A stretch of 52,077 nucleotides of DNA, taken from Oscillospiraceae bacterium. GTDB taxonomy: Bacteria; Bacillota; Clostridia; Oscillospirales; Oscillospiraceae. Both the position numbers and the translations under genes were made by a program. The stretch's first letter is position 1, and each line of letters starts with the position of its first letter. The notes beneath the pieces are model-generated. The model saw only the letters and a list, made by a program, of their open reading frames with translations. It was not told where the DNA came from and did not search any database. Where the stretch lies: assembly GCA_017469795.1 (NCBI GenBank), contig JAFUFT010000031.1, positions 1-52,077 of the forward strand, written 5' to 3'. This document shows, piece by piece, positions 6,000-23,495 of this stretch.

Positions 6000-6005
6000 A
6001 TTGTC

Positions 6006-7751: not shown

Positions 7752-9302
7752 CTACGGGATCAATCCGTAACGCTTTGCCTTGTTGTACATGGTGGACCGG
7801 CTGACGCCGATCAGCGCCGCCGCCTCGGTCAGACTGCCGTGGGCCTGCTCGATCGCCCGCTGTACCGCCTGCTTTTCGTATTCGGCCAGCGTCAGGAGCG
7901 GCTCCTGCGGCTCTGACGGCGATGGGGTACGGACGGGAGCCGGGTCAGCTTGGGCGGCCGATTCCTCCTTCGGCGGCAGTGGGTTGCCCTGCTTGTCCAT
8001 GGTCGGTTCGGGGATCGGGTCCAGCTGACTGCGGTACTCCGGCAGCCGCACCAGATGAAACATGTCTCCGGTGGCGTTGTAGACCTGCTTGATTCCGATC
8101 ACGGTGTTGGGATACAGAAAACTCATGCGATTGAGCACATTCCTTAGTTCCCGCACGTTGCCGGGCCAGTCATACCGCATCAGCATCTCCCGGGCGTCCT
8201 GGTTGAACTCCAGCTTCAGACCGTCCTGATCGATGAAGTGCTGGATCAGAAGGGGAATGTCCTCCTTGTGGGCGCGGAGCGGCGGGATGTTGATCTCAAA
8301 GGTGTTGAGACGGTAATACAGATCCATCCGGAATTTTCCCTCTGCAACCAGCCGCTTGAGATCCTGGTTGGTGGAGGCGATGATCCGGGCGCGCATGGGA
8401 ATCACCCGGCTGCCGCCGATCCGCTCAAACTCCCGGGCTTCCAGCACCCGGAGCAGTTTGCTCTGGAGTTCAAAGCTCATTTCTCCGATCTCGTCAAGCA
8501 GCAGCACGCCGCCCGCAGCCTGTTCAAATTTACCTTTTTTCAGGCTGGTTGCGCCGGTGAACGCGCCCTTTTCATGGCCGAACAGTTCCGATTCCAGCAG
8601 ATCCCGGGGGATGGCGGAGCAGTTGATCTTGACGAAGGGGATCGTCCGGCCCTGACTGTACTCGTGGTAAATGGCGTCGGCGATGATCTCCTTGCCCACG
8701 CCCGTCTCACCGATCAGAAGCACCGGATGATAGGTCTGGCTGATCCGCTGACACTGCTCGATGGTCAGGACCACATTCTCCGCCTCTCCGATGAAGTCCG
8801 AGAATGTGTATCCGGAGGTTCTTCCGGATTCCGGCGTGACCTTTTCCGTCTGCTCCAGGCTTCGCTCCAGAGTTTGGATTGCCCGCTTGAGCACCGCGGT
8901 GGAGCGAAAGACGATGAGCAGCATCACGCCGATGATCTCGCCGTCGGAGAAGATGGGCACCAGATTGGTCAGAAGCCTGCGGGACCCTACCTCCATAGGC
9001 ACCGCCATCTGCCGGACGCCGTCAGAGAGCACCCGGTCGATATGGGCCTGCCCGTCGATCTTCAGTTCGTCGACCGGATGTGTCTGAAACTCTGCCAGCG
9101 ACTGGCCGGTCAACTCTTCAAACCCCTTGGAAAGGTAGATGACCCGGCGCTCCCGGCTGATCAGGGCGGCGGCGTCCACCGTGTTGTCAAGGATCGTGTC
9201 GATCACGGGCGCGGCGACCTCCATATCCCGGCGGGACAATGTGATCACGTGTTCCAAGCAGATGCACCTCGGTTCCTCTGGAATGATCCAATAGTTCGCC
9301 AT
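7752..9302 (-). CDS. Sigma-54-dependent transcriptional activator (PAS, AAA+, Fis-type HTH)
   Basis: Enhancer-binding protein that opens RpoN promoters by ATP hydrolysis. The N-terminal ~140 residues hold a PAS-like sensor (NTVDAAALISRERRVIYLS). The AAA+ domain has Walker A GETGVGKE, the sigma-54-contacting loop GAFTGA and Walker B LLLDEIGEM, with an Arg-finger region near FRMDLYYRLN. A Pro-rich linker leads to a Fis-type HTH (TEAAALIGVSRSTMYNKAKRYG). Start ATG 9302 is preceded by AAGGAG; the open frame further upstream belongs to the antisense of the neighbouring gene. No receiver domain is present, so it likely senses a small ligand directly. It is the natural activator for the four nearby -24/-12 promoters. 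Confidence 0.93.
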   Translation of the reverse strand: MANYWIIPEEPRCICLEHVITLSRRDMEVAAPVIDTILDNTVDAAALISRERRVIYLSKGFEELTGQSLAEFQTHPVDELKIDGQAHIDRVLSDGVRQMAVPMEVGSRRLLTNLVPIFSDGEIIGVMLLIVFRSTAVLKRAIQTLERSLEQTEKVTPESGRTSGYTFSDFIGEAENVVLTIEQCQRISQTYHPVLLIGETGVGKEIIADAIYHEYSQGRTIPFVKINCSAIPRDLLESELFGHEKGAFTGATSLKKGKFEQAAGGVLLLDEIGEMSFELQSKLLRVLEAREFERIGGSRVIPMRARIIASTNQDLKRLVAEGKFRMDLYYRLNTFEINIPPLRAHKEDIPLLIQHFIDQDGLKLEFNQDAREMLMRYDWPGNVRELRNVLNRMSFLYPNTVIGIKQVYNATGDMFHLVRLPEYRSQLDPIPEPTMDKQGNPLPPKEESAAQADPAPVRTPSPSEPQEPLLTLAEYEKQAVQRAIEQAHGSLTEAAALIGVSRSTMYNKAKRYGLIP

Positions 9303-9388
9303 TGCGGCATCTCCTTTATACCACGGTATTCGGAACTTTTCAAGGGGGACAGTCCAAAAATTGAACGGCCTGTGTAAAAACTGGAACC

Positions 9389-10615
9389 CTACAGCTCGCT
9401 GCGGATCACAGCGCCCTTGTGCAGCACCAGCCTGACATTCTCCCGGTCCAGGGCGGCGAAGCTCTCGTCCACAGGGCCGCTGACCGCCACCAGGTTGGCC
9501 AGACGGCCTTCTTCGATCAGACCCTCTTCCGCACCGGTGCCGACCACCTCCGCCGCGGTGATTGTGCCGGCGGCAATGGTCTCCTGCAGCGTAAAGCCGG
9601 CTCCGGTCAGCGCCCGCAGCTCCGGAACAGGAATCACCGCGTCTTTCATGAAATCGCGGCTGTGGATCAGGTCGGTGCCGATGACGACCCGGCCGCCCGC
9701 CCTGTGGTAGCGGCCCAGGTTTTCCACCATGGTCTTCCACTGTTTTCGCTTTTCCTCGGGGGAGGGCATGACCATACCGGGCGGGGGACCCATGGGCGCG
9801 TCTCCGCCGGGGCCGCCTGGACCACCCGGGCCTCCGGGCATCAGCATGCCGGGAGGGGGCTCCATGGCCTTGTCCGGGTCGCCTACGGTGGTGTCCATGA
9901 CCACACCGTTTTCCGCCATAAACCGGATCATTTCGTCCGGCATGGGATCGCTGGGCGTGTGGGCCAGCTCCCGGACCCCGGCGTCCAGCATGAACTGCGC
10001 GCCCCGGCAGATGCCGATATGCGCAGCTACCCACATGCCGTGCTCCCTGGCCCGGTCGCAGATGGCCTTTGCCATCTCCGGACTCAGGTGGGGCGTTAAG
10101 TCCATGCGGCCATCGTGAATGCCGATCTTGATACCGGGATAACCCAGCTTGTGGTGCAGACTTACCTCTTCGGCGGCCTCCTCCGCCGTTGTGATCAGCG
10201 TCCCTACCGGATGATTCGGATTGGGTCCCGCGCCGTAGCCTCCGGCCACGTCGATGTAGTTGCCCACGGCCACAACCGTCGCGGTCTCCGGCTGGCTGTT
10301 AACGGTCTCGATCCATTTGGCATAATCGGCCTGGCTGAGCTGAGACAGCATGCCCAACTCCCGGACTGTGGAGACACCGTTGTAGGCCCAGGCCCGGATG
10401 GCGTCCTCCCGGAACGCATTGTCGTCCACCGCCACATGGACGTGGGCATCGATGAAAGTGGGCAGCAGCGTACAGCCTGACAGGTCAAATTCCCGGTCGG
10501 CAGGTCCCAGATCGCGGCCGATGGCCGTGATGGTGCTGTCCGTTACCAGCACGTCGGCGGTTTCGTTGTTTCGGACGGAGTCCAGCAGGACAGCGTTTTT
10601 AAGCAGTACAGTCAT
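9389..10615 (-). CDS. Amidohydrolase-family metal-dependent hydrolase with Pro/Gly/Met-rich insert
   Basis: Metal-dependent hydrolase of the amidohydrolase superfamily (TIM barrel). Ligand candidates are H58 and H60 in DAHVHV, K163 in GIKIG, H199 in AAHI, H219 in ELAHT and D315 in GTDLI, so the active site looks complete. Between the last His and the Asp sits a low-complexity insert at residues ~251-286, starting PPPGMLMPGGPGGPGGPGG and ending PPPGMVMP. A similar insert occurs at the same place in the second amidohydrolase (17829-19016). There is no signal peptide, so it is cytoplasmic. A -24/-12 promoter (10666-10650) and an AGGAGG precede the ATG. Substrate unknown; prolidase-like or imidazolonepropionase-like relatives are possible. 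Confidence 0.87.
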   Translation of the reverse strand: MTVLLKNAVLLDSVRNNETADVLVTDSTITAIGRDLGPADREFDLSGCTLLPTFIDAHVHVAVDDNAFREDAIRAWAYNGVSTVRELGMLSQLSQADYAKWIETVNSQPETATVVAVGNYIDVAGGYGAGPNPNHPVGTLITTAEEAAEEVSLHHKLGYPGIKIGIHDGRMDLTPHLSPEMAKAICDRAREHGMWVAAHIGICRGAQFMLDAGVRELAHTPSDPMPDEMIRFMAENGVVMDTTVGDPDKAMEPPPGMLMPGGPGGPGGPGGDAPMGPPPGMVMPSPEEKRKQWKTMVENLGRYHRAGGRVVIGTDLIHSRDFMKDAVIPVPELRALTGAGFTLQETIAAGTITAAEVVGTGAEEGLIEEGRLANLVAVSGPVDESFAALDRENVRLVLHKGAVIRSEL

Positions 10616-10649
10616 ACAAGCACCTCCTGATATTTCTGTATTCTTCTAT

Positions 10650-10666
10650 AGCAATTTTTCTGCCAA
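10650..10666 (-). promoter_or_regulatory. Sigma-54 promoter for the amidohydrolase at 9389-10615
   Basis: On the minus strand TTGGCAGAAAAATTGCT matches the -24/-12 consensus TGGCAC-N5-TTGCW, with GG and GC exactly 12 bases apart. It lies about 35 bases upstream of the start codon and faces away from its divergent partner at 10698. Confidence 0.85.
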
Positions 10667-10697
10667 AATGCAACTGAAATCTATTTTTCGTTCAAAC

Positions 10698-10713
10698 CGG
10701 CACGGTTCTTGCT
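10698..10713 (+). promoter_or_regulatory. Sigma-54 promoter for the beta-helix gene
   Basis: CGGCACGGTTCTTGCT matches the -24/-12 consensus, including the G after GGCAC and a perfect TTGCT. GG (10699-10700) and GC (10711-10712) are 12 bases apart. The ATG at 10749 and its AAAGGAG follow at a suitable distance. Confidence 0.88.
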
Positions 10714-10748
10714 AAAATAAGGGTATCACCACGAAAGGAGACCTTTCC

Positions 10749-12650
10749 ATGCAAATAAATGACATCTGCCTCGTGAATGAGAGCATATCACTTGAAGAAC
10801 TGATCGTCGGGCCAAACGGCAGACTTTCCGCCCCGGAAGGAAAGCTGCTGACCGTGGTCGTGGGCGGTGTGGAGATCGACCCGGCCCCCGGCGAATACAC
10901 CGGCGATATCCGGCTGGTCGTTACGGATTTTATCGACGCGCCCATCGAGGGAATGCATGCCCGGCCCGGGGATCCTCCGGAGCCCTATCGCGCGGCCCTG
11001 CTGCTGGGGAAGGACGGCCCCTCTGAGAATTCCGTCTCCGCTGCCTATGCGGGCGGGACGGTCGGGGGCAGTACCGTTTCCGGCGGAACAATCGCCTCCA
11101 CCGGCGAGTGCTTTAACAGCATGATCGTCTCTGGGGGAAAATACGAGATCAGGGATCTTACCATCAAAAACTGCGGCCATTCCACTGACGACGGCAAGGG
11201 ACTGGGCGCGGGGATCCTGGCCGGGGGTGACAGCGAGACCGTGCTGGAGAATGTGACCATCTCCAACCAGGGCATCCGCAACGACGCCATTGTCACCGGC
11301 GGTACCGCAAAAATGACGATCAAAAACTCCACGCTGATCTGTGCGGGCGGTACACCGGAGCAGATCCAGGCGGTCCACAAGATCCGCCCCGGTAAGGCCT
11401 GCATGACCTACGTGTCCGGCGGCTGGGGCACCACCCGGGCTGTCAACGTGCAGAATGACTCCAGTCTTTATCTGGAAAACTGCACGGTAAAGTCCGACAG
11501 CTGGGGCGTTCTGTCCACCGATGGCATCTCCTCCAAGAAGGAATGGGGCCCCGTCAAAACCCGGATCTATGCAAAGGACTGCGACGTGGAACTCAATGGC
11601 CGTCACGGTTACGGCTCCTACTCCATCGGAGACTGCACCAACATCTTTGACCACACCAGAATGTATGCCCCGGACGTGGCCTATAAGGTGGCAAACGAAC
11701 TGGCAGGCGGCGAATTCATCGGCGGATCGGAAATCATCGGCGGGCGCTTCGGTGTCATGTGGCAGTCGAACCAGGGCGGCAAACTGATCGTCAAAGACAG
11801 CGCCATCCGGTCCGGCCGATCCACCTTCATCGCCCGATCCTGCTTCCCCAACATCTACTGCGAGAACGCCACACTGGAGCCGGGCAACCGGGTGATCCTC
11901 CAGATGTTTGACTCCGATGATCCCGGCTTCGGCAAATCCGAGGTGGAGGTGGACACGGAAGTGGCGGTGAAGGATCCTGACCACGACGTGACGAAGCCCC
12001 AGTACCATCCCGTGTCCATCTGGGGCTTTGAGCAGCCGGAGTGGTGTACGGATCTCCAGGCCACGTTTAAGGACATGACCATCATCGGTGACTTCTACAA
12101 CGGCATCACAAACGCAAAAAAGCCCATGATGATGCCTGCCATGCCCGCGCCCGGCGGCGCGCCAGCCGGTGGTCCTCCTGCGGGCGGTCCTCCTGCCGGT
12201 GGTCCCGGCGGACCCGGTGCACCGGGCGGAAAGCCGGCCGGCGGTCCCGGCGGTATGCCCGGCATGAACCAGAAGAACTATCCCATCAACCTGGTGCTGA
12301 CCCTGGACAACGTGAAGCTGGAGGGCGTGATCTCCGCCTCCAAAGCGCAGCATGCGGTAAAGACCATCTCTGGTTCCAACCGGAAGGAGATCTACCAGGT
12401 CTACGACACCCCCCGGCCCGTGGTAAATAACGGCGTGATCGTCACCCTGAAGAACGGCACTGAGTGGACCATCGTCGGCCACAACTACCTCTCCGCCCTG
12501 CACATCGACGAGACCTCTGTCATCAAAACTCCTGATGGCTGCGATGTGGAGATGACGGTGGACGGCGTGGAGGTTCCCTGCGTCCCCGGCGACTACACCG
12601 GCGACATCTTCATCCAGGCGAAGCAGCTGCCCACCCCCGCCATGTTCTGA
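10749..12650 (+). CDS. Right-handed beta-helix repeat protein with Pro/Gly/Met-rich insert
   Basis: 633 residues with no signal peptide or membrane segment. The middle (about 90-450) has many short T/S/N-rich strand-turn repeats (DLTIKNCG, NVTISNQG, KNSTLICAG, KDSAIRSG) typical of parallel beta-helices. At residues ~456-509 lies an insert rich in Pro, Gly and Met (PMMMPAMPAPGG, then AGGPPAGG repeats). Related modules open and close the protein: VVVGGVEIDPAPGEYTGDI near residue 38 and MTVDGVEVPCVPGDYTGDI near residue 605, as if capping the helix. Lack of export suggests a structural or binding role in the cytoplasm rather than an extracellular lyase. It is divergent from an amidohydrolase that has a similar insert. 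Function is not known. Confidence 0.75.
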   Translation: MQINDICLVNESISLEELIVGPNGRLSAPEGKLLTVVVGGVEIDPAPGEYTGDIRLVVTDFIDAPIEGMHARPGDPPEPYRAALLLGKDGPSENSVSAAYAGGTVGGSTVSGGTIASTGECFNSMIVSGGKYEIRDLTIKNCGHSTDDGKGLGAGILAGGDSETVLENVTISNQGIRNDAIVTGGTAKMTIKNSTLICAGGTPEQIQAVHKIRPGKACMTYVSGGWGTTRAVNVQNDSSLYLENCTVKSDSWGVLSTDGISSKKEWGPVKTRIYAKDCDVELNGRHGYGSYSIGDCTNIFDHTRMYAPDVAYKVANELAGGEFIGGSEIIGGRFGVMWQSNQGGKLIVKDSAIRSGRSTFIARSCFPNIYCENATLEPGNRVILQMFDSDDPGFGKSEVEVDTEVAVKDPDHDVTKPQYHPVSIWGFEQPEWCTDLQATFKDMTIIGDFYNGITNAKKPMMMPAMPAPGGAPAGGPPAGGPPAGGPGGPGAPGGKPAGGPGGMPGMNQKNYPINLVLTLDNVKLEGVISASKAQHAVKTISGSNRKEIYQVYDTPRPVVNNGVIVTLKNGTEWTIVGHNYLSALHIDETSVIKTPDGCDVEMTVDGVEVPCVPGDYTGDIFIQAKQLPTPAMF

Positions 12651-12660
12651 TTCCCAATAT

Positions 12661-12694
12661 AAAAATCCCGCCGGTTTCTACCGGCGGGATTTTT
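12661..12694. terminator. Bidirectional terminator
   Basis: AAAAATCCCGCCGGT (12661-12675) and its exact complement (12680-12694) form a 15-base stem with a TTCT loop, with T-runs on both strands. It ends the rightward beta-helix gene and the leftward operon that finishes at 12720. Confidence 0.93.
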
Positions 12695-12719
12695 TAGGGA
12701 ATAGAAGAAATGAGAACAA

Positions 12720-14639
12720 TCAGAGGATCATAGCTGCGTCAAAGGCGCCCCGCACCGCCTGCTGGACGGTTCCGACCTGCTTGCAGTCGCCGATCATGGT
12801 GAAGGGCACCCCGGGCAGGATCAGAGCCTCCGCGGCGGCGGTATTGGGACGGAAGCCTACGCACAATACCACGCTGTCCGCCTCCAGTACCTGCTCGGTT
12901 CCGTTTGCGTCCGTGTATGTCACCTTGCCGGCCTCGATCCCGGTGCAGCGGCCGTTTGTGACGGTGTGGAGGTTTTCCCGTTCGCTCAGTTCGATGTCCA
13001 TGGCCCAGTGGTAGGTGAACCATGCGTCCGGGGCGATCTTTCCCTGCATCTCCAGGATGGTCACGTCCTTGCCCAGCCACGCCAGATGGATGCCGGTCTC
13101 GGCGCCCACCTGTCCGCCGCCGATGATGACGACCTTCTGCCCCAACTGATCCTCGCGGCCAAACACGTCGGGGGCCTTGACGGCATTCTCCACACCGGGA
13201 ATGGGGATCACCAGAGGCTCCGCCCCAAGAGCCAGGATCACGTGATCCGGCTTTTCCGCGGAGAGAATCTCCTGCGTGGCCTTTGTGTTCAGACGAACGT
13301 CGATGTTCCGCTTGCCCACCTGGGTGATGAGGTACTGCTTGAACCGGCCCAGATCCCGTTTGAATTCGGCATAGTCCGCGAAATTAAGCTGGCCGCCCAA
13401 ATGGTCCTTTGACTCGAACAGGACCACCCTGTGGCCTCTGTCCGAAAGGTACACCGCCGCCTGCATCCCGGCGGGACCGCCGCCCACCACGCAGATCTTC
13501 TTGCCGCCCTCAGTGGGAAGAATATACTTGTCCAGCCGGTCTTCGATGCCGATGACAGGGTTCACGGAGCAGACGAAGTGATCATAGTAGCAGGCCCCGT
13601 CGTGGCACTTGAAACACTTGATGCAGGGCCGCACGTCCTCCGGCGTACCCGCATAGGCCTTGTTGGCCAGGTCCGGGTCTGCGATGATACCCCGGGCGAT
13701 GGAGACGAAATCCGCCTTCCCGGAGGCGATAATCTCCTCCGCCTGGCTGAGATTCTGAATGGCGCCGATGGTGACGATGGGGATAGAGGTGCCAGACTTT
13801 TTGATGGCCTCCGCGTATTGGACGTTGGGCGTATCCGGCAGGAAGCCGGAGGGATGGGTGGTGGTAAAGTACCTGGCGTTGTTCATGCCGCAGGAGCAGT
13901 GGAGCAGATCCACCCGGCCCTCCAGCAGCTTTGTGAGCTCGATGGAGTCCTCCACGGTGATGCCCTCCGGATCTACCTCCGAGGCGGAGAAGCGCAGCTC
14001 AATGAGGAAATCCTTCCCGCACTTCTCCCGGATGGCGTCCAGCGTCATGGTCAGATACCTTGCCCGGTTTTCCAGACACCCGCCAAACTCGTCGGTGCGT
14101 CTGTTGAACCGCTCCGACAGGAACTGGGCGTTGTCCGTGGCGTGGCCGAAGTGGACCATGCACATATCGAAGCCTGCCTTTTTGCAGAGAGCCGCCGCCT
14201 CGGCGTACATCCGGGCCTTTTTCGCGATCAGCTCCCTCGGCATCTCTACGCTGTCCCGGCCCATCTTTTTCAGGCCCGGACTCACCGCGTAATACTGGTC
14301 GTAGAAATACTGGTCGGAAAGCTGCATGGAGGCCACGGCGCCGAAGTGGTGGACCCGGGCCGCCATCTCATAGAGACTCCGGAGGCCGGCGGTGGTGTAG
14401 GGGTTGATGTGCAGGTGGTTCCCGTCGGATTTCATGTCCGGGTTGATCTGAACCCCGGTGCAGGTGACCATAGCGGGCCCGCCCTTTGCCCGGTTCCCGA
14501 AGTGGGTGATGACGGACTCCTCATAGGCCGGACCGCCGTTCTGCAGGGCGTGAACCCCGGTGGGAGCGGTGAAGATACGGTTTTTGAACAGGATATTCCC
14601 CACTTTCTTGGGGGACAGCAGATTGGGATAATTGCTCAT
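12720..14639 (-). CDS. Old-yellow-enzyme-type NAD(P)H:flavin oxidoreductase (FMN, 4Fe-4S, FAD)
   Basis: Resembles 2,4-dienoyl-CoA reductase and the bile-acid enzymes BaiCD/BaiH, which reduce activated C=C bonds. The N-terminal ~350 residues form the FMN barrel (starting PNLLSPKKVGNILFKNRI). A Cys cluster follows at ~345-365 (CIKCFKCHDGAC...C) for the Fe-S centre. Then come two dinucleotide-binding folds, with VVGGGPAGMQAA near residue 390 and IIGGGQVGAE near 508. Length 639 is usual. The ribosome binding site GAGGTGA overlaps the stop region of the preceding UGSC-like gene, nine bases away, so the two are co-translated. It is the last gene of the leftward sigma-54 operon. Substrate unknown. 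Confidence 0.9.
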   Translation of the reverse strand: MSNYPNLLSPKKVGNILFKNRIFTAPTGVHALQNGGPAYEESVITHFGNRAKGGPAMVTCTGVQINPDMKSDGNHLHINPYTTAGLRSLYEMAARVHHFGAVASMQLSDQYFYDQYYAVSPGLKKMGRDSVEMPRELIAKKARMYAEAAALCKKAGFDMCMVHFGHATDNAQFLSERFNRRTDEFGGCLENRARYLTMTLDAIREKCGKDFLIELRFSASEVDPEGITVEDSIELTKLLEGRVDLLHCSCGMNNARYFTTTHPSGFLPDTPNVQYAEAIKKSGTSIPIVTIGAIQNLSQAEEIIASGKADFVSIARGIIADPDLANKAYAGTPEDVRPCIKCFKCHDGACYYDHFVCSVNPVIGIEDRLDKYILPTEGGKKICVVGGGPAGMQAAVYLSDRGHRVVLFESKDHLGGQLNFADYAEFKRDLGRFKQYLITQVGKRNIDVRLNTKATQEILSAEKPDHVILALGAEPLVIPIPGVENAVKAPDVFGREDQLGQKVVIIGGGQVGAETGIHLAWLGKDVTILEMQGKIAPDAWFTYHWAMDIELSERENLHTVTNGRCTGIEAGKVTYTDANGTEQVLEADSVVLCVGFRPNTAAAEALILPGVPFTMIGDCKQVGTVQQAVRGAFDAAMIL

Positions 14640-14648
14640 CTCGTCACC

Positions 14649-16334
14649 TCAATACGCCACATAGTCGGGCTTGCCGGACCGATATTGCTCACACAGAGCG
14701 TCCCAGTTTTCCGGCAGCTCGATCTTCGCACAGGAGGGGCCGCCGTGGTCGCCGCCGCCCCCCAGCACCGTTACCATGCAGCCTGCCTGACCGCCTGCCA
14801 CCGTCAGGAACATGTGTTCCGTGGACCAGAAGGTCCGGGTGGAGGCCTCCATGTCGAGGGGCAGGTCTACGGTCTTGGGCGGGTGGTTGTTCTGGATCAG
14901 CCATTGGAGGTCCACCTCCCGGGCAGGCTTCCGGGCGTACTCTACGATGTATTCGAGGATCCGCTGCTTGGTCCATCCCGCTTCCGCCATCATTTTCGCG
15001 CACTTAGGGGTGAGGATCACCGCCAGACCCGGGTCCCAGCCGTAGGGATCCATTTTGCACAGAGCCTTCAAAACGGCGGGTACGGTGGTGCAGGTGGAGA
15101 CCCGGTGCTCCTGAGGCCAGAACATGGTCACGCAGGAGTCATCTTTGTCAAAGCCGAAGTCCTCGTGGACCGGGCCCCAGGGGTTGTTCTGCAGGCTGTC
15201 GCCCATGGCGAAGCCCTCCCGGAACTCGTGGCCCATCTCGGAAAGATCCTCCACGCCGGGCCGGACGCCGCCGATGTTCATCATGATGTAGCCGAAGGCT
15301 CTGGCGATGGTGGTGTTGGCTCGGAAAGCCGGGGTCAGAGCATGGTCGGCGGTGTTGAAGCCGATATCCTCGGCTACCTTTCCAGAGAGCGTCAGGACAG
15401 GGCCCCAGGTGCTCTGGGAGCAGCACCAGCCCTCCAGATAGATCTTCGGATCCATGGCGCCCTTCACCGCGGCGATCAAAACAGGCAGATAGGTGGGCAG
15501 ACACCCGGCCATCACCGCGTTGACGGCGATTTTCTCCACGGTGGCCAGACCCATCATGGGCGGGATCTTCGACACCACGTAGTCCGCTGGGTAGTCCGTG
15601 CCCCGCATCATCTCGTCCACAGCCTCCCGGGTGGGCATTTTGACAGGCGTGCCGTTCGTCCAGCCGTAGGAGTAGAACAGGTCGGAGATCTCGTCCGGGG
15701 TCCCTTCAAAGGTCCGGGTGGCAAGGCTCTGGTCCGCAGGAGAGGGGTTCTTTTCCTCCTCGGTCAGAGGGGCGGTCAGACCGTCGACCAGCTCTTTGAC
15801 GAACCGCGCCGTGCCGGCGCCCATGTTTTTCTCCGTCTGCTCCAGATCCGAGCGGCCGAAGATGTCCAGCACCTCCGGCTGGAAGGGTACGATCCGGAGA
15901 CCCGGCACGCACCGGGCTTTCACGCCCCGCTGTCCCGCGGAGAAGGTCCGGGGCACCACCGCCATGACGGCAGGCTTGCCGCACTTCTCCATGAAGGCCG
16001 CGTTGTATCCCAGAAACAGGGAGCTGGAGGGCACCGCGCCGTAGAACACCATAACGCAGTCCACGCTCTGAAGCCAGGGCCGGAAGGTGGCCAGCGCCGC
16101 TTCATCCTTTGCGATGTCTGTCGTCTCTGTCTTGTACTCGTAGTAGGAGAATTTCACCTCTGGATACTGCTTTTTGACGTGCTTCTCCACCACCTTAAGC
16201 ATATAGGTGGCGATCTTCATGAAGTCGCCGAACATACCGATGGTTTTCCCGTTCAGATCCGGCAGACGGGGACTCAGACCGTAGAGCTCAGACTGGTCCA
16301 CCTCCGCCCAGGGGGAAAGAACCGTATATTTCAT
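14649..16334 (-). CDS. UGSC-like family protein (active-site UGSC motif not conserved)
   Basis: 561 residues and soluble. The C-terminal part (YGWTNGTPVKMPTREAVDE, then TVEKIAVNAVMAGCLPTYLPV) resembles proteins related to the UGSC (seleno)protein family. The N-terminal half has the corresponding fold signature MVFYGAVPSSSLFLGYNAAF. There the Sec/Cys-Gly-Ser-Cys element expected of UGSC proteins is replaced by AVPSSS, so thiol or selenol chemistry at that site seems lost. Family assignment is from memory of motifs and is moderate. ATG 16334 follows AGGAGG. It lies between rpoN and the OYE gene in one direction and likely belongs to the same pathway. Catalytic role unknown. Confidence 0.6.
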   Translation of the reverse strand: MKYTVLSPWAEVDQSELYGLSPRLPDLNGKTIGMFGDFMKIATYMLKVVEKHVKKQYPEVKFSYYEYKTETTDIAKDEAALATFRPWLQSVDCVMVFYGAVPSSSLFLGYNAAFMEKCGKPAVMAVVPRTFSAGQRGVKARCVPGLRIVPFQPEVLDIFGRSDLEQTEKNMGAGTARFVKELVDGLTAPLTEEEKNPSPADQSLATRTFEGTPDEISDLFYSYGWTNGTPVKMPTREAVDEMMRGTDYPADYVVSKIPPMMGLATVEKIAVNAVMAGCLPTYLPVLIAAVKGAMDPKIYLEGWCCSQSTWGPVLTLSGKVAEDIGFNTADHALTPAFRANTTIARAFGYIMMNIGGVRPGVEDLSEMGHEFREGFAMGDSLQNNPWGPVHEDFGFDKDDSCVTMFWPQEHRVSTCTTVPAVLKALCKMDPYGWDPGLAVILTPKCAKMMAEAGWTKQRILEYIVEYARKPAREVDLQWLIQNNHPPKTVDLPLDMEASTRTFWSTEHMFLTVAGGQAGCMVTVLGGGGDHGGPSCAKIELPENWDALCEQYRSGKPDYVAY

Positions 16335-16366: not shown

Positions 16367-17725
16367 TCAGCGGGCATTCCGGCGGGAACGCTCCCGCTTT
16401 CGCCCGGATGCGGTCGGAAGGCCCATCTCCGCCCGGTATTTGGCCACGGCCCGCCGGGACAGCCGGATATGGCGTCGATCCAGTTCCGCGGCGATCCGCT
16501 CGTCGCTGAGGGGGTGCGCCGGATCCTCTTCGCGAATGATCTCCGCAATCAGCTCCTGCACGGACCCACGGCTGACGCCCGGATTCTGTCCGGCCTCCCG
16601 GCTGAAGAACGCGGACATGGGAAGCATGCCCCGGCTGCACTGGACGTATTTATGCCGGACTGCCCGGCTGACGGTGGATTCGTGGAGCTCCAGCTCCTCC
16701 GCCACGTCCTGAAGGGTCAAAGCGCAGAGGGCGCCGCCCCGCAGGAATTCTGCCTGCCGGGCCGCGATCACCTCGCCGCAGCGCTGGAGCGTGGTGTTCC
16801 GGCGGCTGAGATTCCCCATGACCTGCCGGACCTGCTGGAACTTCTCCCGCAGATAGGTCTGCACGGCCTCGTCCTGCTCCGTCTCCAGCATCCGGAGATA
16901 GGCGCTGCTGATGTGGATCCTGGGGAGATAGGCCTCCTCCACGGTGACAGTCAGAGTGCCGTCGAGCTCAGTGATGCTGAGATCTGGCGTCACATACAGT
17001 GTCTTTTCCTTCGACGCAAAGCCTCCCGAGGGGTAGGGACTGAGGGAGGCAATCACGGCCTTTGCCGCGGCGACGGCTTCCTCGGAGACGCCCATGGCTC
17101 TTGCGATCCGTCGGTCCGACCAGGCGCCGAGGTGGTCATAGTGTTCCGTCAGCATCCGAAGAGCCACGGGCTTGTCCAGCTGTTCCAGCTGGCGAAGCAG
17201 GGAACTGCGCACACTGTCCGCCGCCACGCCTACAGGCTCCAGACTGCGGACCCGGCGAAGGGCTTCCTCCGCCTCCTCCGCGGTGCATCCGGAGATGGAT
17301 GCAATCTCGAGAGAGGAACCGGGGAACAGGCCCCGCTCATCCAGAAGATCCGCCGTGGTTTCCATGGCGGTCCGGATGGCCGGCGGCACGTCCAGGGTGA
17401 GGATCTGCTCCTTTAGATAGTCACTCAGGTATTCCGCCGTTTCCGCAGGGAGGTACTGATCCGGATGGTCATGCGCTTCAGCACTGTAATAGGTGCGGTT
17501 CTGCCGGTCACCGGCCCGGAGCCACCGGAGCAGATCAGCCGCCGTTTGACCAGCCGGAGAGACGTCCTGGCGCTCCGGTTCTTCCAGCTCCACTACAGGG
17601 TTCTCATAGCTCAGGTTTTCCAGATACTCCGACAGTTCCTGACTCCCGTACTGCAGGATCCGGACTGCGGCAATGGTATGGGGAGAGACCGACTGCAGCG
17701 TCTGTACGCCGGCCGTCATTCTCAT
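16367..17725 (-). CDS. rpoN: RNA polymerase sigma-54 factor
   Basis: Directs RNA polymerase to -24/-12 promoters and needs an AAA+ activator. Region I is seen as a Q/L-rich start (QTLQSVSPHTIAAVRILQYGSQEL). The core-binding domain follows, then an HTH (LQDVAEELELHESTVSRAVRHKY). The RpoN box reads SRRAVAKYRAEMGLP, close to the ARRTVAKYRE consensus. ATG 17725 is used because GGTGAG lies upstream, but GTG 17737 or ATG 17719 are possible. At about 452 residues it is of normal length. Its place inside a catabolic cluster whose promoters it would read is unusual and suggests a dedicated or co-inherited sigma factor. Confidence 0.93.
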   Translation of the reverse strand: MRMTAGVQTLQSVSPHTIAAVRILQYGSQELSEYLENLSYENPVVELEEPERQDVSPAGQTAADLLRWLRAGDRQNRTYYSAEAHDHPDQYLPAETAEYLSDYLKEQILTLDVPPAIRTAMETTADLLDERGLFPGSSLEIASISGCTAEEAEEALRRVRSLEPVGVAADSVRSSLLRQLEQLDKPVALRMLTEHYDHLGAWSDRRIARAMGVSEEAVAAAKAVIASLSPYPSGGFASKEKTLYVTPDLSITELDGTLTVTVEEAYLPRIHISSAYLRMLETEQDEAVQTYLREKFQQVRQVMGNLSRRNTTLQRCGEVIAARQAEFLRGGALCALTLQDVAEELELHESTVSRAVRHKYVQCSRGMLPMSAFFSREAGQNPGVSRGSVQELIAEIIREEDPAHPLSDERIAAELDRRHIRLSRRAVAKYRAEMGLPTASGRKRERSRRNAR

Positions 17726-17783
17726 GGTGCTCACCACGCTTTCTGCAGAAAATGCCGGAAACTGTGTGCCGGCGGTTGTTTCA

Positions 17784-17808
17784 GAGGGCGCTCCGGCGGA
17801 GCGCCCTC
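17784..17808 (-). terminator. GC-rich hairpin between amidohydrolase and rpoN
   Basis: GAGGGCGCTCC (17784-17794) and GGAGCGCCCTC (17798-17808) form an 11-base stem. No proper T-run follows on the minus strand, so it may be an attenuator or an RNA-stability element that lowers rpoN expression relative to the upstream genes, rather than a full terminator. Confidence 0.45.
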
Positions 17809-17828
17809 CGGAAAGAGAACAAAACAGG

Positions 17829-19016
17829 TCAGGCGCCCTTGATAACCTTGCCCCGGTTCATCACGAACTCCACGTGGGAAAGCGCCTCAAAGGTCTCATC
17901 AATGGGATCCTTCACGGCGATGATGTTGGCCTGCTTACCCACCGAGATGGAGCCCACCTGGCCGTCGATCTTGCAGAGCTTCGCGGCGGTGATGGTAGCC
18001 GCATCGATGACCTGGGGCACGCTGAGTCCCGCCTTGTAGAGAAGCTGCAGCTCCCGGACCGGCATACAGGCCACATGGGGCTGAGACTCCATCCGCATGG
18101 TGTCGGTTCCCACCGCCACCGTGCCGCCGAATTCCACAAACCGGCGCACGTTGTCCACACAGATATCCTCCTGCTCCTGGGGGTCCTTCATCATCATGGG
18201 CGGAGGACCGCCGGGACCGCCCGGACCGCCGGGCATAGGCGGCATCTTTGCGCCCTTCGGCAGCGGGGGCCGTGGGGCGTTGATGGACATGAGGGTGGGG
18301 GTACAGGTGACGCCCGCGTCCGCCATGGCCCGGAGCAATTCGTCGGAGACATAGTCCGTGGGCATGTGGGCAAACTCCGGCATGCCTGCCTCCAGCAGCG
18401 CTGGGATGAATTCAGCGTCCAGAATGTGGCAGGTGACCCAGACGCCCCGGGCCTTGGCGGTATCTGCGATGGCCTTGAGCTTTTCGGTTTCAATGGGCGT
18501 CTGTCCGCCGCCCATGCCCCGGCCGATGGAGGTCTTGATGCCGTCGCAGCCCATGTCGATGAGCTCGTTGACGGTGGCTGCCGCATCCTCCGGGGTCCGG
18601 CAGCCGTAGCCGGTTTCCGCACCGTCGGACATGACGTGGTTCAGCCCGTGATATTGGGCCACAAACCGTCCCGCCGTCAGGCAGTGGGCACACTCCGGCA
18701 TCTCGATTGTCTCCCGGTAGGCCAGGAATTCCTCCGTGGGATGGTCGTTTTTGTCGTTTCCCATACCAAGATCCCGGACGGTGGTGACACCGGCCTGCGC
18801 CCAGGCCCGGAGGGCCCGGTCGTTGTATTCGATATCGCCGGTGACGATGTGCATATGGGCGTCGATGACGCCGGGCAGAACGGCGGCGTATCCAGACATA
18901 TCGTGGATCTCATCGGCAGCGTCAAAAGAGCCGATTCCGATGATCTTGCTGTCCTCCACCAGAATATCGGCAGGATCGCCGCCATAGATGTTCGCGTGCT
19001 TCAGTAAGATTTTCAT
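17829..19016 (-). CDS. Amidohydrolase-family hydrolase with Pro/Gly/Met-rich insert (second copy)
   Basis: 395 residues, same superfamily as the product of 9389-10615. Metal-ligand candidates are H54 and H56 (DAHMHI), K161 (GIKTS), H197 (TCHI), H217 (FAHMP) and D305 (GTDTM). An insert at residues ~247-277 reads AKMPPMPGGPGGPGGPPPMMM and sits at the same structural point as in its paralogue, between the last His and the Asp. No signal peptide. The ribosome binding site is AAAGGTGA. It follows the SnoaL-like gene by 57 bases and should share its sigma-54 promoter. The two enzymes may act on related intermediates or form one assembly. Substrate unknown. Confidence 0.87.
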   Translation of the reverse strand: MKILLKHANIYGGDPADILVEDSKIIGIGSFDAADEIHDMSGYAAVLPGVIDAHMHIVTGDIEYNDRALRAWAQAGVTTVRDLGMGNDKNDHPTEEFLAYRETIEMPECAHCLTAGRFVAQYHGLNHVMSDGAETGYGCRTPEDAAATVNELIDMGCDGIKTSIGRGMGGGQTPIETEKLKAIADTAKARGVWVTCHILDAEFIPALLEAGMPEFAHMPTDYVSDELLRAMADAGVTCTPTLMSINAPRPPLPKGAKMPPMPGGPGGPGGPPPMMMKDPQEQEDICVDNVRRFVEFGGTVAVGTDTMRMESQPHVACMPVRELQLLYKAGLSVPQVIDAATITAAKLCKIDGQVGSISVGKQANIIAVKDPIDETFEALSHVEFVMNRGKVIKGA

Positions 19017-19073
19017 GCAATCACCTTTTTGTGAATAGTTAAGAGTGAAAAGTGAAGAGGGGGAACAGATCGC

Positions 19074-19796
19074 TTACTTGTGAACGATATGCTCATGGGG
19101 GAAGGGACCCCACTTGTCGGGGTTGTTGCCCTCGTCAGGGTTGAAGGAGTGAATGGTGGCGGGCTCATCCGGCGGCCAGTAGGGGGCCGGCGTCCGGCGG
19201 CAGTCCGGGCACTCCAGGAAGCTCTTGTGGTAGGGCGTCCGCAGCCAGCAGATGGGATGGAGCTTGAGGATCTTCCACTCGCCGTTTTCCTTCACGAACT
19301 CGTTGTCATATTTGCCGGCGATCCAGAAAGCGGTGTCCTTTTTGGTGCTGGTCTCGGGGTCAAAGACCCGATTGGTGTGAGGCCCGAAGATGTGCCACTG
19401 GCCCCAGGCGTGGGTGCCGTCCTCGCTGACCTCGATGAGCGGGGAGGAGATGGTCAGCATCAGCAGCAGGAAGGCGCGGTCCGTGTTGGTGTTGGACATG
19501 GTGGCGCCCTTCTGAACGGGATTGCCGTCGGTGTCCACCCGGCGGGCCATGGTGTCCCAGACCCGTTTCACGTGTGCCTGGCCCAGGTAAGCGCCGGAGT
19601 CCATGATCTCGACCCGCACGTCCGGATTGGTGTGGGTCCAGAGATCGTCCCACACCTCGCCGATCTTTCCGTTTTCCATATAGAAGATGTAGCGGCTCAT
19701 CAGATTCTGGATATCCACAGCGTCGGCGGCGTACTGGAGTCGCTTTACCTCCTTCTCCAGAGACTCAATTTTTGAGAGCAATGCCTTTTCGTCCAT
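19074..19796 (-). CDS. SnoaL-like / NTF2-fold protein
   Basis: 240 residues. A short coiled coil (LLSKIESLEKEVKRLQYAADAVDIQNLMSRY region, residues 5-37) leads into a SnoaL-type alpha+beta barrel. The family includes polyketide cyclases, dehydratases and the bile-acid 7-alpha-dehydratase BaiE. The tail has a Cys pair (CPDC) and a Pro-rich end. It is the first gene of the leftward operon, under a consensus sigma-54 promoter (19850-19834). With an OYE reductase further along the operon, a lyase or isomerase step on a cyclic substrate is plausible, but this is inference. Its leader contains an 18-base segment repeated in inverted form ahead of the divergent gene. Confidence 0.75.
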   Translation of the reverse strand: MDEKALLSKIESLEKEVKRLQYAADAVDIQNLMSRYIFYMENGKIGEVWDDLWTHTNPDVRVEIMDSGAYLGQAHVKRVWDTMARRVDTDGNPVQKGATMSNTNTDRAFLLLMLTISSPLIEVSEDGTHAWGQWHIFGPHTNRVFDPETSTKKDTAFWIAGKYDNEFVKENGEWKILKLHPICWLRTPYHKSFLECPDCRRTPAPYWPPDEPATIHSFNPDEGNNPDKWGPFPHEHIVHK

Positions 19797-19798
19797 GA

Positions 19799-19816
19799 TG
19801 GTTCTCCTTTCAAAAG
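19799..19816 (-). repeat. Left copy of an 18-base inverted repeat
   Basis: On the minus strand this reads CTTTTGAAAGGAGAACCA and contains the ribosome binding site of the SnoaL-like gene. An identical copy on the plus strand lies at 19921-19938. Confidence 0.95.
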
Positions 19817-19833
19817 TGTTTCGCCTTCATTAT

Positions 19834-19850
19834 AGCAAGAATTGTGCCAA
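19834..19850 (-). promoter_or_regulatory. Sigma-54 promoter of the leftward operon
   Basis: On the minus strand TTGGCACAATTCTTGCT is a full match to TGGCAC-N5-TTGCW with 12-base GG-GC spacing. It should drive the SnoaL-like gene and the genes behind it. Confidence 0.92.
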
Positions 19851-19887
19851 AAATAAATTTGTTTTGCTGCTCGTAAAATCGGCGGTT

Positions 19888-19903
19888 TGGCACAAAATCT
19901 GCT
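19888..19903 (+). promoter_or_regulatory. Sigma-54 promoter of the solute-binding protein genes
   Basis: TGGCACAAAATCTGCT matches the -24/-12 consensus with one change in the -12 element (CTGCT for TTGCT). GG (19889-19890) and GC (19901-19902) are 12 bases apart. A 9-base inverted repeat (CAAAAGCAT / ATGCTTTTG) follows, near the expected start of the transcript. Confidence 0.85.
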
Positions 19904-19920
19904 GCAACAAAAGCATCATG

Positions 19921-19938
19921 CTTTTGAAAGGAGAACCA
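19921..19938 (+). repeat. Right copy of the 18-base inverted repeat
   Basis: CTTTTGAAAGGAGAACCA, identical to the minus-strand copy at 19799-19816. It carries the ribosome binding site of the first solute-binding protein. The two copies bracket both divergent sigma-54 promoters. Confidence 0.95.
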
Positions 19939-19940
19939 CA

Positions 19941-21689
19941 ATGAAAAAGACATCTATGATAAGTCTGGCACTTGCATTGTGTCTGCTGCTGTCGTTGCTG
20001 GCGGGCTGCGGCGGAACCGGAACGCAAACGGGCAGCGACGCGGCCCCGGCCTCCGCAGTGTCCGGAGCGGAACCCGCTGCGGCCGAAGCAGCCCCGGCGG
20101 CGGCACCGGAAGCTGCGGCGCCCACTGAAGCCGGTTCCGCGCAGGAGCCTGCCGAAGAACCCACGGAAGCGGAGCCGGTCTATGAAAAGGTGGAGGTCGC
20201 TTTGCCCATCACGGACGGCGGCGAGACCATCAGCATGTATCTGCTCCTGCCTCCCTTCATCACCGCCATGGTGGAGCGGCCCAACGATCTGACTGTTTTG
20301 GGAGAGCTGGAAAAACGGACCGGACTGACCTTCGATATCACGCCGGGAAACTATATTGACGGCCAGACCGACGTGAACCTGCTGATCGCCGGCGGCACCT
20401 ATCCCGATCTCATCAACCATGCGGATCTGTATTCCAATGGAATCGACGCGGCGGTCAATGAGGAGATCGTCATCGATCTGAAGGACCGGATCGAAAACGA
20501 TATGCCCAATCTGCTGGCCAGCCTCAAGGCCTATGATGTGGACGTCATCAAGCAGATGACCACCGATTCCGGTTATATCGCCTACTTCCCGCAGATCCAC
20601 AAGGAGCCCTATGTGGACAACTTCGCCATTGTGGTGCGTAAGGATCTGGTGGAGGAAAACGGTCTGGAGATCCCGGAGACCTTTGACGAATTCCACGACT
20701 TCCTGACCGCCCTGAAGGATGCGTCCGGGATGCAGTTCGGATTCAGCAACGACGGCTTCGATCAGGCCATGATCACGGGACTGAACCTGGGTCCTGCCGG
20801 GACCGTTGGCGCTGAGAGTCTGCGTGTGATCGACGGAGAGCTGGAATACTGCGGTGTGGCCGATGAGATGCGGCAGTATCTGGAGATGGCCAGAGACTGG
20901 TACGCCGAGGGGCTGCTGTACAGCGACTTCATTTCCTATGAGAGCTTTATGCAGGGCAACATGGTCACAGCCGGCAACACGCTCTTTGGATTCAGCAATG
21001 GCAACGCCCAGACGATCCAGGAGGGACTGGTCAACGGCATCGACCTGATCCCCATTCCCTATCCCACGCCGAGCGCCGGAGACGAGATCAAGATCCACGG
21101 TTCCGGCGAAGTGGTCCGCTGCGCGGCCTGGTCTGTCTCCACCCAGTGCAGCGAGGAAAATCTGGACCTGATCTGCCAGCTGGTGGACTACATTTTCTCC
21201 GACGAGGGCACCCTGCTCTTCAACTACGGCGCGGAAGGCGAGGCATTCCGGTACGGCGACAACGGCGAGCCGGAGTGGACGGACCTGATCCTGGACTACG
21301 CCGGCGGCACCACCACGGCCTGCATGATCTATGCCACCGCAACGCCTGCAGAGTATATCCCGGGCATCTATGACGACAGCAAATTTGACTACAGCTACAC
21401 CGATACCATGGTGGAAATCGAGGATATGATCGACAACGCCTCCACCGGAGAATACGACTATCCCATCGGCGCAGACAACCGGATCTCCTCTGAGGACCTG
21501 CTGACCGCGGCCGCCCTGTCCAGCGATCTTTCCACCTACGTCTCCACCACGATCCTCAGCTGGATCCACGGCCAGACGGAACTCAACGATCAGACCTGGC
21601 AGGAATATGTGGACACCTGCTACGCCATGAACCTCCAGGATATCATCGATATCTATCAGGAGGGCTACGACGTGTTTATGGCGGAATGA
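19941..21689 (+). CDS. Lipoprotein extracellular solute-binding protein 1
   Basis: 582 residues. A lipoprotein signal peptide (MKKTSMISLALALCLLLSLL, lipobox LAGC) is followed by an Ala/Glu/Pro-rich spacer of about 50 residues and then a large periplasmic-binding fold (family 1/LplA-like). ATG 19941 is chosen because of GAAAGGAG upstream; an earlier in-frame start would put residues before the signal peptide. It is driven by the -24/-12 promoter at 19888 and probably co-transcribed with the next paralogue. No permease or ATPase gene is present in the window, so it may serve a distant transporter or act as a surface receptor for the regulon's ligand. Confidence 0.87.
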   Translation: MKKTSMISLALALCLLLSLLAGCGGTGTQTGSDAAPASAVSGAEPAAAEAAPAAAPEAAAPTEAGSAQEPAEEPTEAEPVYEKVEVALPITDGGETISMYLLLPPFITAMVERPNDLTVLGELEKRTGLTFDITPGNYIDGQTDVNLLIAGGTYPDLINHADLYSNGIDAAVNEEIVIDLKDRIENDMPNLLASLKAYDVDVIKQMTTDSGYIAYFPQIHKEPYVDNFAIVVRKDLVEENGLEIPETFDEFHDFLTALKDASGMQFGFSNDGFDQAMITGLNLGPAGTVGAESLRVIDGELEYCGVADEMRQYLEMARDWYAEGLLYSDFISYESFMQGNMVTAGNTLFGFSNGNAQTIQEGLVNGIDLIPIPYPTPSAGDEIKIHGSGEVVRCAAWSVSTQCSEENLDLICQLVDYIFSDEGTLLFNYGAEGEAFRYGDNGEPEWTDLILDYAGGTTTACMIYATATPAEYIPGIYDDSKFDYSYTDTMVEIEDMIDNASTGEYDYPIGADNRISSEDLLTAAALSSDLSTYVSTTILSWIHGQTELNDQTWQEYVDTCYAMNLQDIIDIYQEGYDVFMAE

Positions 21690-21725
21690 TCCGCCGCATA
21701 ACGCACAAGAAAGGAAGCGCACAAT

Positions 21726-23495
21726 ATGAAGAAAAGAATCGCGATTCTGCTGAGCATGTGCCTGATCCTCGGGCTGTTTGCAGCCTGCGGCGGCACTGCG
21801 CCCGCCGCGGAAGCCTCCGCATCCGCCCTGGCACCTCAGGAAGAAGCTGCCGCTGCCGGAGCGCCTGCAGAGGAGACTGAGCCGGAGCCTGCAGCTGAAG
21901 CGGAAACCGAGGAGATCTCCGCCGAGGAGATCGCGGAGGAGACTGAGCCGGAGATCGTTCACCTGGTAGAGTTCCCCATTGAAGAGTCCTTCTCCATCTC
22001 CGTCAGCGAATCCACCACCCCGTCCCTCACCGGCTCCGCCCTGATCGGCGATGACGGCAGTGAGCTGGGCTGGGCCAAGTGGCTGCAGGAGCGGACCGGG
22101 GCGGATATTGAAGTGGATCTCTACTCCTTCCTGGACGCCACGGACAAGCAAAATCTGATGATCGCCTCCGGAGACTACACCGATATTCTGGTGGGTCAGC
22201 TCAACTATGCCGGCGGCGTGGACGGCGCCGTGGAGGAGGACGTCCTCACCGACATCGCCGAGTATGCGGAGTATATGCCCGACTACATGAACACGCTGTT
22301 CCAGGATGTGAACAACGTGGCCGCGGCCTACTCCACCGGAAATCATCTGACCGCCTTCTACGGCATCAACGACCCGGAGGCCCGGGCGGACTACGGCCCG
22401 GTGATCCGGCAGGACTGGCTGGACGAACTGGGTCTCCAATCCCCGGAAACCTATGACGAGCTCCACGATGTGCTGACGGAATTCAAAAACGCCTATGACG
22501 CCACCCTGTGGATCTCCGCCTACGGCGGCGTACCCGGAGACTTCTCCGGCGGCTATGGGTTCCCGGAGTATGCCGGAGGCGCCGGCTTCCCCACGGAGGT
22601 CAAGGACGGACAGTTCCGGTTTGCCCCGGTGGTGGATGGATTCCAGGACTATCTGCGGATGATGCATCAGTGGTATTCCGAAGGCCTGATCTACCCCGAC
22701 TTCCTCAGCCAGGGCGGCTCCGACTATCCTGCCAACGACCTGTTCACCGGCGATAAGATCGGCGTCTGGTTCACCTATGTCTCCTACATCGACGCGGAAC
22801 AGACGCTGCTGGAGCAGGGCACCATCGCCCCCATCGTCTGGCCCTCCCTTGAAAAGGGCAAGCCCTGTGAATACGGAAAGGCCCCCAACAACTCCGGCGT
22901 GGACGGTATGGGCGCATTCTCCGTCACCACGGCCTCCGATGACATCCCGCTGCTGTGCGCCATCTTCAACGAGTTCTACACCGAGGACGGCTATGACTTC
23001 TGCAACTGGGGCACGGAGGGTGAGACCTATGTGGTGGAGCCCGACGGCAGCCGGTCCTTCACCGACCTGATTGTGAATGACCCCTATTCTCTGGGCGCCA
23101 ACGTGATGATGACCTACTACTTCTTCAAGGACGGTCCGTTCCTGTACAACAACGAGCGGTATCTGGCCTCCTATTCCGACGTGCAGCTGGAGGCCGCCAA
23201 CATGTGGACCACCAGCCGCTCCGCTGCCCAGCTCTCCACCATGACCACCGATCAGATGTACGAGTCCTACACCCTGCAGAGCGACATCTCCACGGTGTAT
23301 CAGGAGTATGTGGTGAAGTTCATCGTGGGTGACAAGGACATCGAAGCCGACTGGCAGGAGTTCATGGATCAGCTCAACGGCTGCGGTCTGGAGCGCTTCC
23401 TGGAGCTGGGACAGACCGGCGTAGACCAGTATGCCGACCGGCTCACCGAGGTGCAGGAAATCTACGACAGCTTCTGGAACAACGAAACCCCGTAA
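21726..23495 (+). CDS. Lipoprotein extracellular solute-binding protein 2
   Basis: 589 residues and paralogous to the preceding gene, 36 bases downstream with its own GAAAGGAAG. It has a signal peptide with lipobox (ILGLFAACGG) and an acidic Ala/Glu-rich spacer (residues ~25-75). The same binding-protein fold follows, with shared stretches such as DIATIV/DISTVYQEY-type C-terminal sequence. A strong terminator follows. Two tandem binding proteins without a permease suggest two related ligands or a non-transport role. Confidence 0.85.
   Translation: MKKRIAILLSMCLILGLFAACGGTAPAAEASASALAPQEEAAAAGAPAEETEPEPAAEAETEEISAEEIAEETEPEIVHLVEFPIEESFSISVSESTTPSLTGSALIGDDGSELGWAKWLQERTGADIEVDLYSFLDATDKQNLMIASGDYTDILVGQLNYAGGVDGAVEEDVLTDIAEYAEYMPDYMNTLFQDVNNVAAAYSTGNHLTAFYGINDPEARADYGPVIRQDWLDELGLQSPETYDELHDVLTEFKNAYDATLWISAYGGVPGDFSGGYGFPEYAGGAGFPTEVKDGQFRFAPVVDGFQDYLRMMHQWYSEGLIYPDFLSQGGSDYPANDLFTGDKIGVWFTYVSYIDAEQTLLEQGTIAPIVWPSLEKGKPCEYGKAPNNSGVDGMGAFSVTTASDDIPLLCAIFNEFYTEDGYDFCNWGTEGETYVVEPDGSRSFTDLIVNDPYSLGANVMMTYYFFKDGPFLYNNERYLASYSDVQLEAANMWTTSRSAAQLSTMTTDQMYESYTLQSDISTVYQEYVVKFIVGDKDIEADWQEFMDQLNGCGLERFLELGQTGVDQYADRLTEVQEIYDSFWNNETP

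Follow-up and report, generated by a model that had tools for sequence, protein, structure and literature searches.

A cluster joining the only sigma-54 gene and the only sigma-54 activator gene of an Oscillospiraceae genome to genes behind predicted sigma-54 promoters

Genes and promoters of the cluster

The gene cluster considered here lies at positions 7752..23495 of a 52,077-nucleotide contig stretch (the window; JAFUFT010000031.1) from an Oscillospiraceae bacterium, whose genome is denoted G000, and combines genes for sigma-54 (rpoN) and a sigma-54 activator with genes for two amidohydrolases, a SnoaL-like protein, a UGSC-family protein, an OYE-type flavoenzyme, two solute-binding lipoproteins and a predicted beta-helix protein (Table 1). 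The original prediction, made from the nucleotide sequence, had named this gene content together with four -24/-12 promoters in two divergent pairs with a 12-base GG–GC spacing. Domain profiles agree with it for the activator with its GAFTGA loop, for rpoN and for the enzymes, a structural model for the beta-helix protein, and lipoboxes recognized by eye for the binding proteins, and the scan of the window recovers all four promoters.

Table 1. Genes, predicted promoters and other features of the cluster (window coordinates)
Feature	Position	Strand	Remarks
Sigma-54 activator (borderline PAS_4, AAA+ with GAFTGA, HTH_8)	7752..9302	-	Sigma54_activat 216 bits
Sigma-70-like promoter TTGAAA-17-TATAAA	9315..9343	-	ahead of activator gene; shared with G040, absent from G041
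Amidohydrolase 1 (Amidohydro_1)	9389..10615	-	first gene of predicted operon with activator
-24/-12 site TGGCAGAAAAATTGCT	10650..10665	-	upstream of amidohydrolase 1 and activator
-24/-12 site CGGCACGGTTCTTGCT	10698..10713	+	upstream of beta-helix gene
Predicted right-handed beta-helix protein, 633 amino acids, Pro/Gly/Met-rich loop	10749..12650	+	AlphaFold model
OYE-type flavoenzyme (Oxidored_FMN and Pyr_redox_2)	12720..14639	-	2,4-dienoyl-CoA reductase/BaiCD kind
UGSC-family N-terminal domain protein, 561 amino acids	14649..16334	-	PF24696 29.2 bits, cut-off 25
rpoN (sigma-54)	16367..17719	-	AID, CBD, DBD domains; alternative upstream GTG at 17737 possible
GC-rich near-perfect inverted repeat, no T-run	17784..17809	-	amidohydrolase 2/rpoN gap; kept in G040
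Amidohydrolase 2 (Amidohydro_1)	17829..19016	-	
SnoaL_4 protein	19074..19796	-	first gene of predicted rpoN-containing operon
-24/-12 site TGGCACAATTCTTGCT, exact, then ATAAT	19834..19849	-	predicted driver of rpoN operon
-24/-12 site TGGCACAAAATCTGCT	19888..19903	+	upstream of binding-protein genes
Solute-binding lipoprotein 1 (AlgQ-like)	19941..21689	+	lipobox by eye
Solute-binding lipoprotein 2	21726..23495	+	lipobox by eye

The features that define the activator family, namely the AAA+ domain with the GAFTGA loop and a Fis-type helix-turn-helix, are present, and the PAS_4 match (23.1 bits) is just at the cut-off; rpoN scores 330.7 bits against TIGR02395 (cut-off 277). The 633-residue protein has no Pfam match, and its AlphaFold model (mean predicted local distance difference test score 86.4) aligns structurally to right-handed beta-helices. 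A motif of the UGSC family is Sec/Cys-Gly-Ser-Cys; the conserved stretch of the cluster protein, judged by eye without alignment to the family, is VPSSS. An iron–sulfur cluster in the OYE-type flavoenzyme is implied by its relatives. Assignment of this enzyme to BaiCD or to bilirubin reductase was rejected, both scores being below the NCBIfam cut-offs (383 versus 825 and 363 versus 750 bits, respectively).

The window was scanned with the pattern TGGCACNNNNNTTGCW at several mismatch levels. Loose matching is uninformative, since up to three mismatches yield 186 matches and 214 are expected by chance, whereas zero or one mismatch leaves five, namely the four sites of Table 1 and one at 36927 on the plus strand. 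All four are intergenic, form the two divergent pairs, show the 12-base GG–GC spacing and lie 34–37 bases upstream of the start codon. The -24 element of the 10650 site departs from the consensus in three species (TGGCAG, TGGCAA, TGGCCC). An alignment of 22 promoters shows no variation at GG and TGCT, which is partly a selection effect, the sites having been found by pattern.

The predicted rpoN-containing operon has gaps of 57 bases between the SnoaL and amidohydrolase 2 genes, 109 between amidohydrolase 2 and rpoN, 32 between rpoN and UGSC, and nine between UGSC and OYE, and the activator gene follows amidohydrolase 1 after 86 bases; a scan of these minus-strand gaps found no terminator-like sites. 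Dyad and k-mer searches returned a 5-mer dyad, with one mismatch, in four of 13 regions (shuffle maximum 3) and 8-mers, mostly resembling ribosome sites, in 10 regions (shuffle maximum 9); beyond these nothing exceeded the shuffles, and no convincing shared activator site was found. A lone activator may need no such site, or these searches may have missed one.

Regulators and promoters across the genome

The draft of G000 (3.06 Mb, 101 contigs, 100% complete) has a single rpoN, judged by its one match to the sigma-54 DNA-binding domain. Among candidate activator domains, the only genuine one scores 219.5 bits and the runner-up 31.6. Both regulators are encoded within the cluster. The promoters extend beyond it, as sites also precede paralogues of cluster genes on four contigs outside the window. 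The site on C63 stands before a SnoaL paralogue, that on C80 before the gene of a 430-residue FAS1-dehydratase-like protein followed by a binding-protein gene, and that on C11 before a 436-residue paralogue of the 430-residue protein, whereas C29 has a divergent pair for an OYE gene and two binding-protein genes, with a further, weaker site (TGGAAC) ahead of another OYE gene. A polysaccharide-deacetylase-family gene also belongs to the regulon. Thus, the regulon, which had been proposed to be self-contained, is not confined to the window, six of the 10 listed promoters (on five contigs; others possibly missed) being located elsewhere.

The strict pattern TGGCAYNNNNNTTGCT was scanned in seven genomes, with gene context assigned by script using a home-made gene caller trained on the window. 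Of 23 matches in the four genomes with rpoN, 21 stand 31–143 bp upstream of genes belonging to the families of this regulon, rpoN being among these genes: six of seven in G000, five of five in its close relative G040, five of five in G041 (including the one before rpoN), and five of six in G042, where the targets are OYE, beta-helix, amidohydrolase 2, deacetylase-family and 430-residue-type genes. In the three genomes without rpoN, none of six matches precedes a gene of the set, one being unassigned: G001 has five, four inside called genes and one before an unrelated gene, G043 has one with no neighbouring gene called, and G044 has none. Reversed-pattern controls gave two matches in G000, one each in G040 and G041, three in G042, and two each in G001, G043 and G044. 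The genome-wide scan, suggested at the outset as a check on whether rpoN serves this cluster exclusively, thus indicates that strict sites are used almost exclusively by the genes of this set.

Relatives and evolution of the regulators

Comparison of the UGSC protein with genome contigs gave 14 loci, the nearest three belonging to RUG12379 (L064), Red_deer_4_mag_125 (L065, G041) and SIG469 (L066, G042), all titled Ruminococcaceae or Oscillospiraceae. In G041, an exact site is followed by rpoN, as the first gene after about 30 bp, and then by the UGSC and OYE genes, and another site precedes the beta-helix gene; the sole activator gene lies at a second locus together with the promoters of SnoaL, binding-protein and amidohydrolase genes, and at a third locus SnoaL and amidohydrolase 2 genes stand behind a site. 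In G042, a more distant relative, four sites, arranged as two divergent pairs, precede the enzyme genes, rpoN adjoins Asp23 and FakA/Dak2 genes, as in G020, and the gene of the closest activator (55% identical) is unlinked; within 400 bases upstream of these two regulatory genes only weak site matches were found. Scattering of the genes in relatives had been named as an observation that would speak against co-regulation. It does occur in part (three contigs in G041, regulators elsewhere in G042), but the promoters are kept although the genes are scattered, which supports co-regulation.

The proposal of a co-regulated set also agrees with four genomes of the same genus, three of which carry the complete combination of rpoN, the activator gene and UGSC and beta-helix genes of the cluster type, the fourth having none of them. 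For UGSC and beta-helix (at least 85% identity), the carriers are G000, G002 and G003; G001 lacks both and retains beta-helix paralogues of up to 41% identity. UGSC loci of about 60% identity were found in G043 and G044, genomes without rpoN or the activator, and one of 59% belongs to a Spirochaetales assembly. In such an assembly (SZUA-414, L071), UGSC, SnoaL and LysR relatives occur together.

Among 300 sampled family members, 80 have rpoN. We scanned 38 rpoN loci with 1.5 kb flanks (the 30 best from these 80 genomes and eight more; L168 has no called rpoN). UGSC or amidohydrolase neighbours of rpoN occur in this genus only, and an exact site directly before rpoN in G041 only, weaker ones being present in L037, L162 and L170. 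In a 37-row rpoN tree, the genus forms a clade (support 100/100) on a stem measuring 3.19 changes per column, compared with a median end branch of 0.35, and is weakly tied to G042 (86/42). Between G000 and G041, identity is 58% for rpoN, 68% for the activator, 73–82% for the binding proteins, and 81–97% for the enzymes and the beta-helix protein. The RpoN box, in an alignment of eight sequences, reads SRRAVAKYR in the three genus members and SRRTVAKYR in the other five (T to A); the HESTVSRAV stretch is retained. These data suggest that the regulon likely captured both regulators into positive feedback in this genus. The feedback loop looks derived, because in G042 sites precede the enzyme genes, but no convincing site precedes either rpoN or the gene of the closest activator.

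Several observations concern the surroundings of these genes. Paralogous clusters adjoin regulators of other types, LysR (L052:2085-3011) and PucR-like HTH_30 (L053:5289-6422). The beta-helix family is expanded, with 16 matches in G000 (some being fragments of one gene), 10–13 in genus mates, and none in the other 36 of 40 sampled genomes. Binding lipoproteins are paired both at window 19941-23495 and at L050:2440-5978, with no adjoining permease gene recognized by eye. Pro/Gly/Met-rich loops (e.g., PGGPGGPGG) are common to the amidohydrolases, the beta-helix protein and the 430-residue protein (window 9389-12650, 17829-19016; L053:7308-8600). Directly past the 3' end of the activator gene are transposase-like open reading frames (window 5964-7588), the second of which (6851-7588) matches rve and HTH_21.

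Discussion

Taking together the genes, sites, copy numbers, distribution and phylogeny, we consider that sigma-54 acts in this genome as a single-purpose, self-reinforcing switch for one gene set, with a probability of roughly 0.7; transcription, operon read-through, feedback, ligand and chemistry are predictions built on those data. A cytoplasmic ligand would bind the PAS-like domain of the activator, which would then open sigma-54 polymerase at the listed sites. Read-through from the 19834 site along the SnoaL, amidohydrolase 2, rpoN, UGSC and OYE genes would yield more sigma-54 (in G041 this would be direct), and read-through from the off-consensus 10650 site along amidohydrolase 1 and the activator gene would yield more activator, the deviating -24 element possibly damping the loop. 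Start-up would come from basal sigma-A transcription, for the activator likely from the TTGAAA/TATAAA promoter and for rpoN perhaps from an extended -10 element, TTGCTATAAT, overlapping the -12 element. It is possible, if on balance doubtful, that the regulon captured the sole sigma-54 and the sole activator to become a private bistable switch, seeded by this extended -10 element within the -12 element, its sigma factor diverging from housekeeping relatives.

The same overlap admits another view of the promoters, where TTGCT of the -12 element and the following ATAAT form an extended -10 element, sigma-A transcribes constitutively, and sigma-54 adds modestly to this output or even blocks it. 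In its favour, matches to TATAAT after the -12 element number 86 of 138 over 23 promoters (G040 omitted), compared with a mean of 67 in within-promoter shuffles (P 5e-5); the promoter of the rpoN operon scores 6/6 in both G000 and G040, and that of rpoN in G041 scores 5/6. However, seven G042 promoters average just 3.1/6, the region after the -12 element is AT-rich in sigma-54 promoters in general, and the -24 element, needless for sigma-A, is retained. The beta-helix promoter has a sigma-70-like match with a -35-like hexamer (10691-10718, 9/12) overlapping its -24/-12 site, which counts against the switch as well, but the scan showed no such hexamer at the three remaining sites of the window, and we regard this view as distinctly unlikely.

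The likely role of the regulon would be uptake and conversion of a bulky, oxygenated compound, with capture by the binding lipoproteins and processing by the amidohydrolases, the SnoaL and FAS1-dehydratase-like proteins and the OYE enoate reductases; the pathway is probably catabolic. Synthesis or modification of a polysaccharide or cell-surface compound might be considered instead, given the resemblance of the beta-helix fold to alginate epimerases and polygalacturonases, the AlgQ-like binding protein and the polysaccharide-deacetylase-family member. Yet the fold is generic, no signal peptide is seen by eye on the beta-helix protein, and the OYE, SnoaL and amidohydrolase proteins suggest small-molecule chemistry, which makes such a role improbable.

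The switch interpretation has to be weighed against several further points. The strong hairpin in the gap ahead of rpoN, after amidohydrolase 2, could curb read-through, and the sigma-70-like promoter could make the activator supply independent of sigma-54. A shared activator site of the form TGT-N10-12-ACA was found three times in 20 promoters, with 3.9 expected. In G000, the number of sites with up to one mismatch is at the chance level, 61 compared with 71 for the reversed pattern, and gene context was examined for 30 of these 61, the other 31, including three window sites and 36927, having no locus; an exact site on C44 fronts no gene of the regulon. The genomes are drafts, G001 being 90% complete, and G000 and G040 are close relatives rather than independent cases, most proteins being 92–98% identical (78% for binding protein 1). 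The long rpoN branch may be partly an artefact, as the tree tool issued a long-branch warning. G042 has a second PAS-type activator (L102), near relatives of the beta-helix and 430-residue protein genes, so that either activator may serve its regulon, and G045, with a UGSC locus of about 60% identity, has an activator and no rpoN match. Finally, rpoN of L162, a locus from outside the genus, is preceded at 47 bp by CGGCACAAAATATGCT, which makes it a fair candidate for autoregulation.

Some of these points would fit an ordinary Clostridial sigma-54 regulon, with a PAS activator running neighbouring catabolic operons and rpoN adjoining by chance, with no meaningful feedback. According to one survey (PMC6615313), Clostridiales usually have a single sigL and activators encoded close to the operons they control, with one to six operons in each regulon, and the hairpin and the sigma-70-like promoter agree with such an arrangement. 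On the other hand, in G041 an exact site directly precedes rpoN, the 10 listed promoters of G000 exceed the survey's range, and the neighbourhood of rpoN with UGSC and amidohydrolase genes is confined to this genus among the 38 loci. This explanation therefore appears rather unlikely.

If the self-reinforcing switch is real, some 17 genes for enzymes and binding proteins, or 19 when both regulators are counted, are marked as one physiological unit, which should facilitate finding the substrate, and all-or-none induction is predicted. As a rule, several activators share sigma-54; a sigma factor inside the gene set in one genus and a different layout in a relative would show a general system becoming private.

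Comparison with known systems

Neither autoregulation of sigma-54 nor the location of rpoN within a sigma-54 operon is new. The Borrelia activator Rrp2 is said to work without an enhancer site. Enhancer independence, here a candidate only, would be a possible likeness to Rrp2-RpoN, the regulon and signal being different (PMC3037356). Autoregulation of sigma-54 has been predicted in several classes including Clostridia (PMC12316311), and those cases share rpoN behind a sigma-54 promoter; in the part of that study considered, none has rpoN within a catabolic operon that also contains the sole activator. In Clostridiales, 1–35 activators per genome have been described (PMC6615313), and a single-activator genome, being within this range, is not new in itself. 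The regulons of that survey resemble ours in the one sigL, the PAS-AAA+-Fis activators, the nearly identical consensus TTGGCATNNNNNTTGCT and the metabolic targets, and differ in that here one activator has 10 listed promoters and rpoN lies inside the regulon.

The original prediction knew of no described pathway with this gene set, and the literature search likewise found no paper; nor, within the portions available, did it find a report of a genome's sole rpoN and sole activator both inside the regulon served. BaiE is SnoaL-like, and amidohydrolases, UGSC and beta-helix proteins are not known as bai gene products. The pairing of a dehydratase with OYE-type iron–sulfur flavoenzymes recalls BaiE/BaiCD/BaiH of the bai operon (PMC10382948), from which the cluster differs by an OYE score below the BaiCD cut-off.

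The closest parallel comes from the symbiosis island of Mesorhizobium loti, for which one study (PMC3538637) describes a prxS-rpoN2 operon with its own sigma-54 promoter and upstream activator site, an activator gene within a sigma-54 operon (fixABCX-nifA1), and a second, chromosomal rpoN1. G000 differs from it in having one rpoN with no second housekeeping copy, no activator site found and genes other than those of nitrogen fixation. What both have in common is that sigma-54 and activator genes belong to sigma-54 operons of one specialised set, and autoregulation of the prxS-rpoN2 type, with rpoN behind a sigma-54 promoter, is direct in G041 and, in the window, would operate by predicted read-through.

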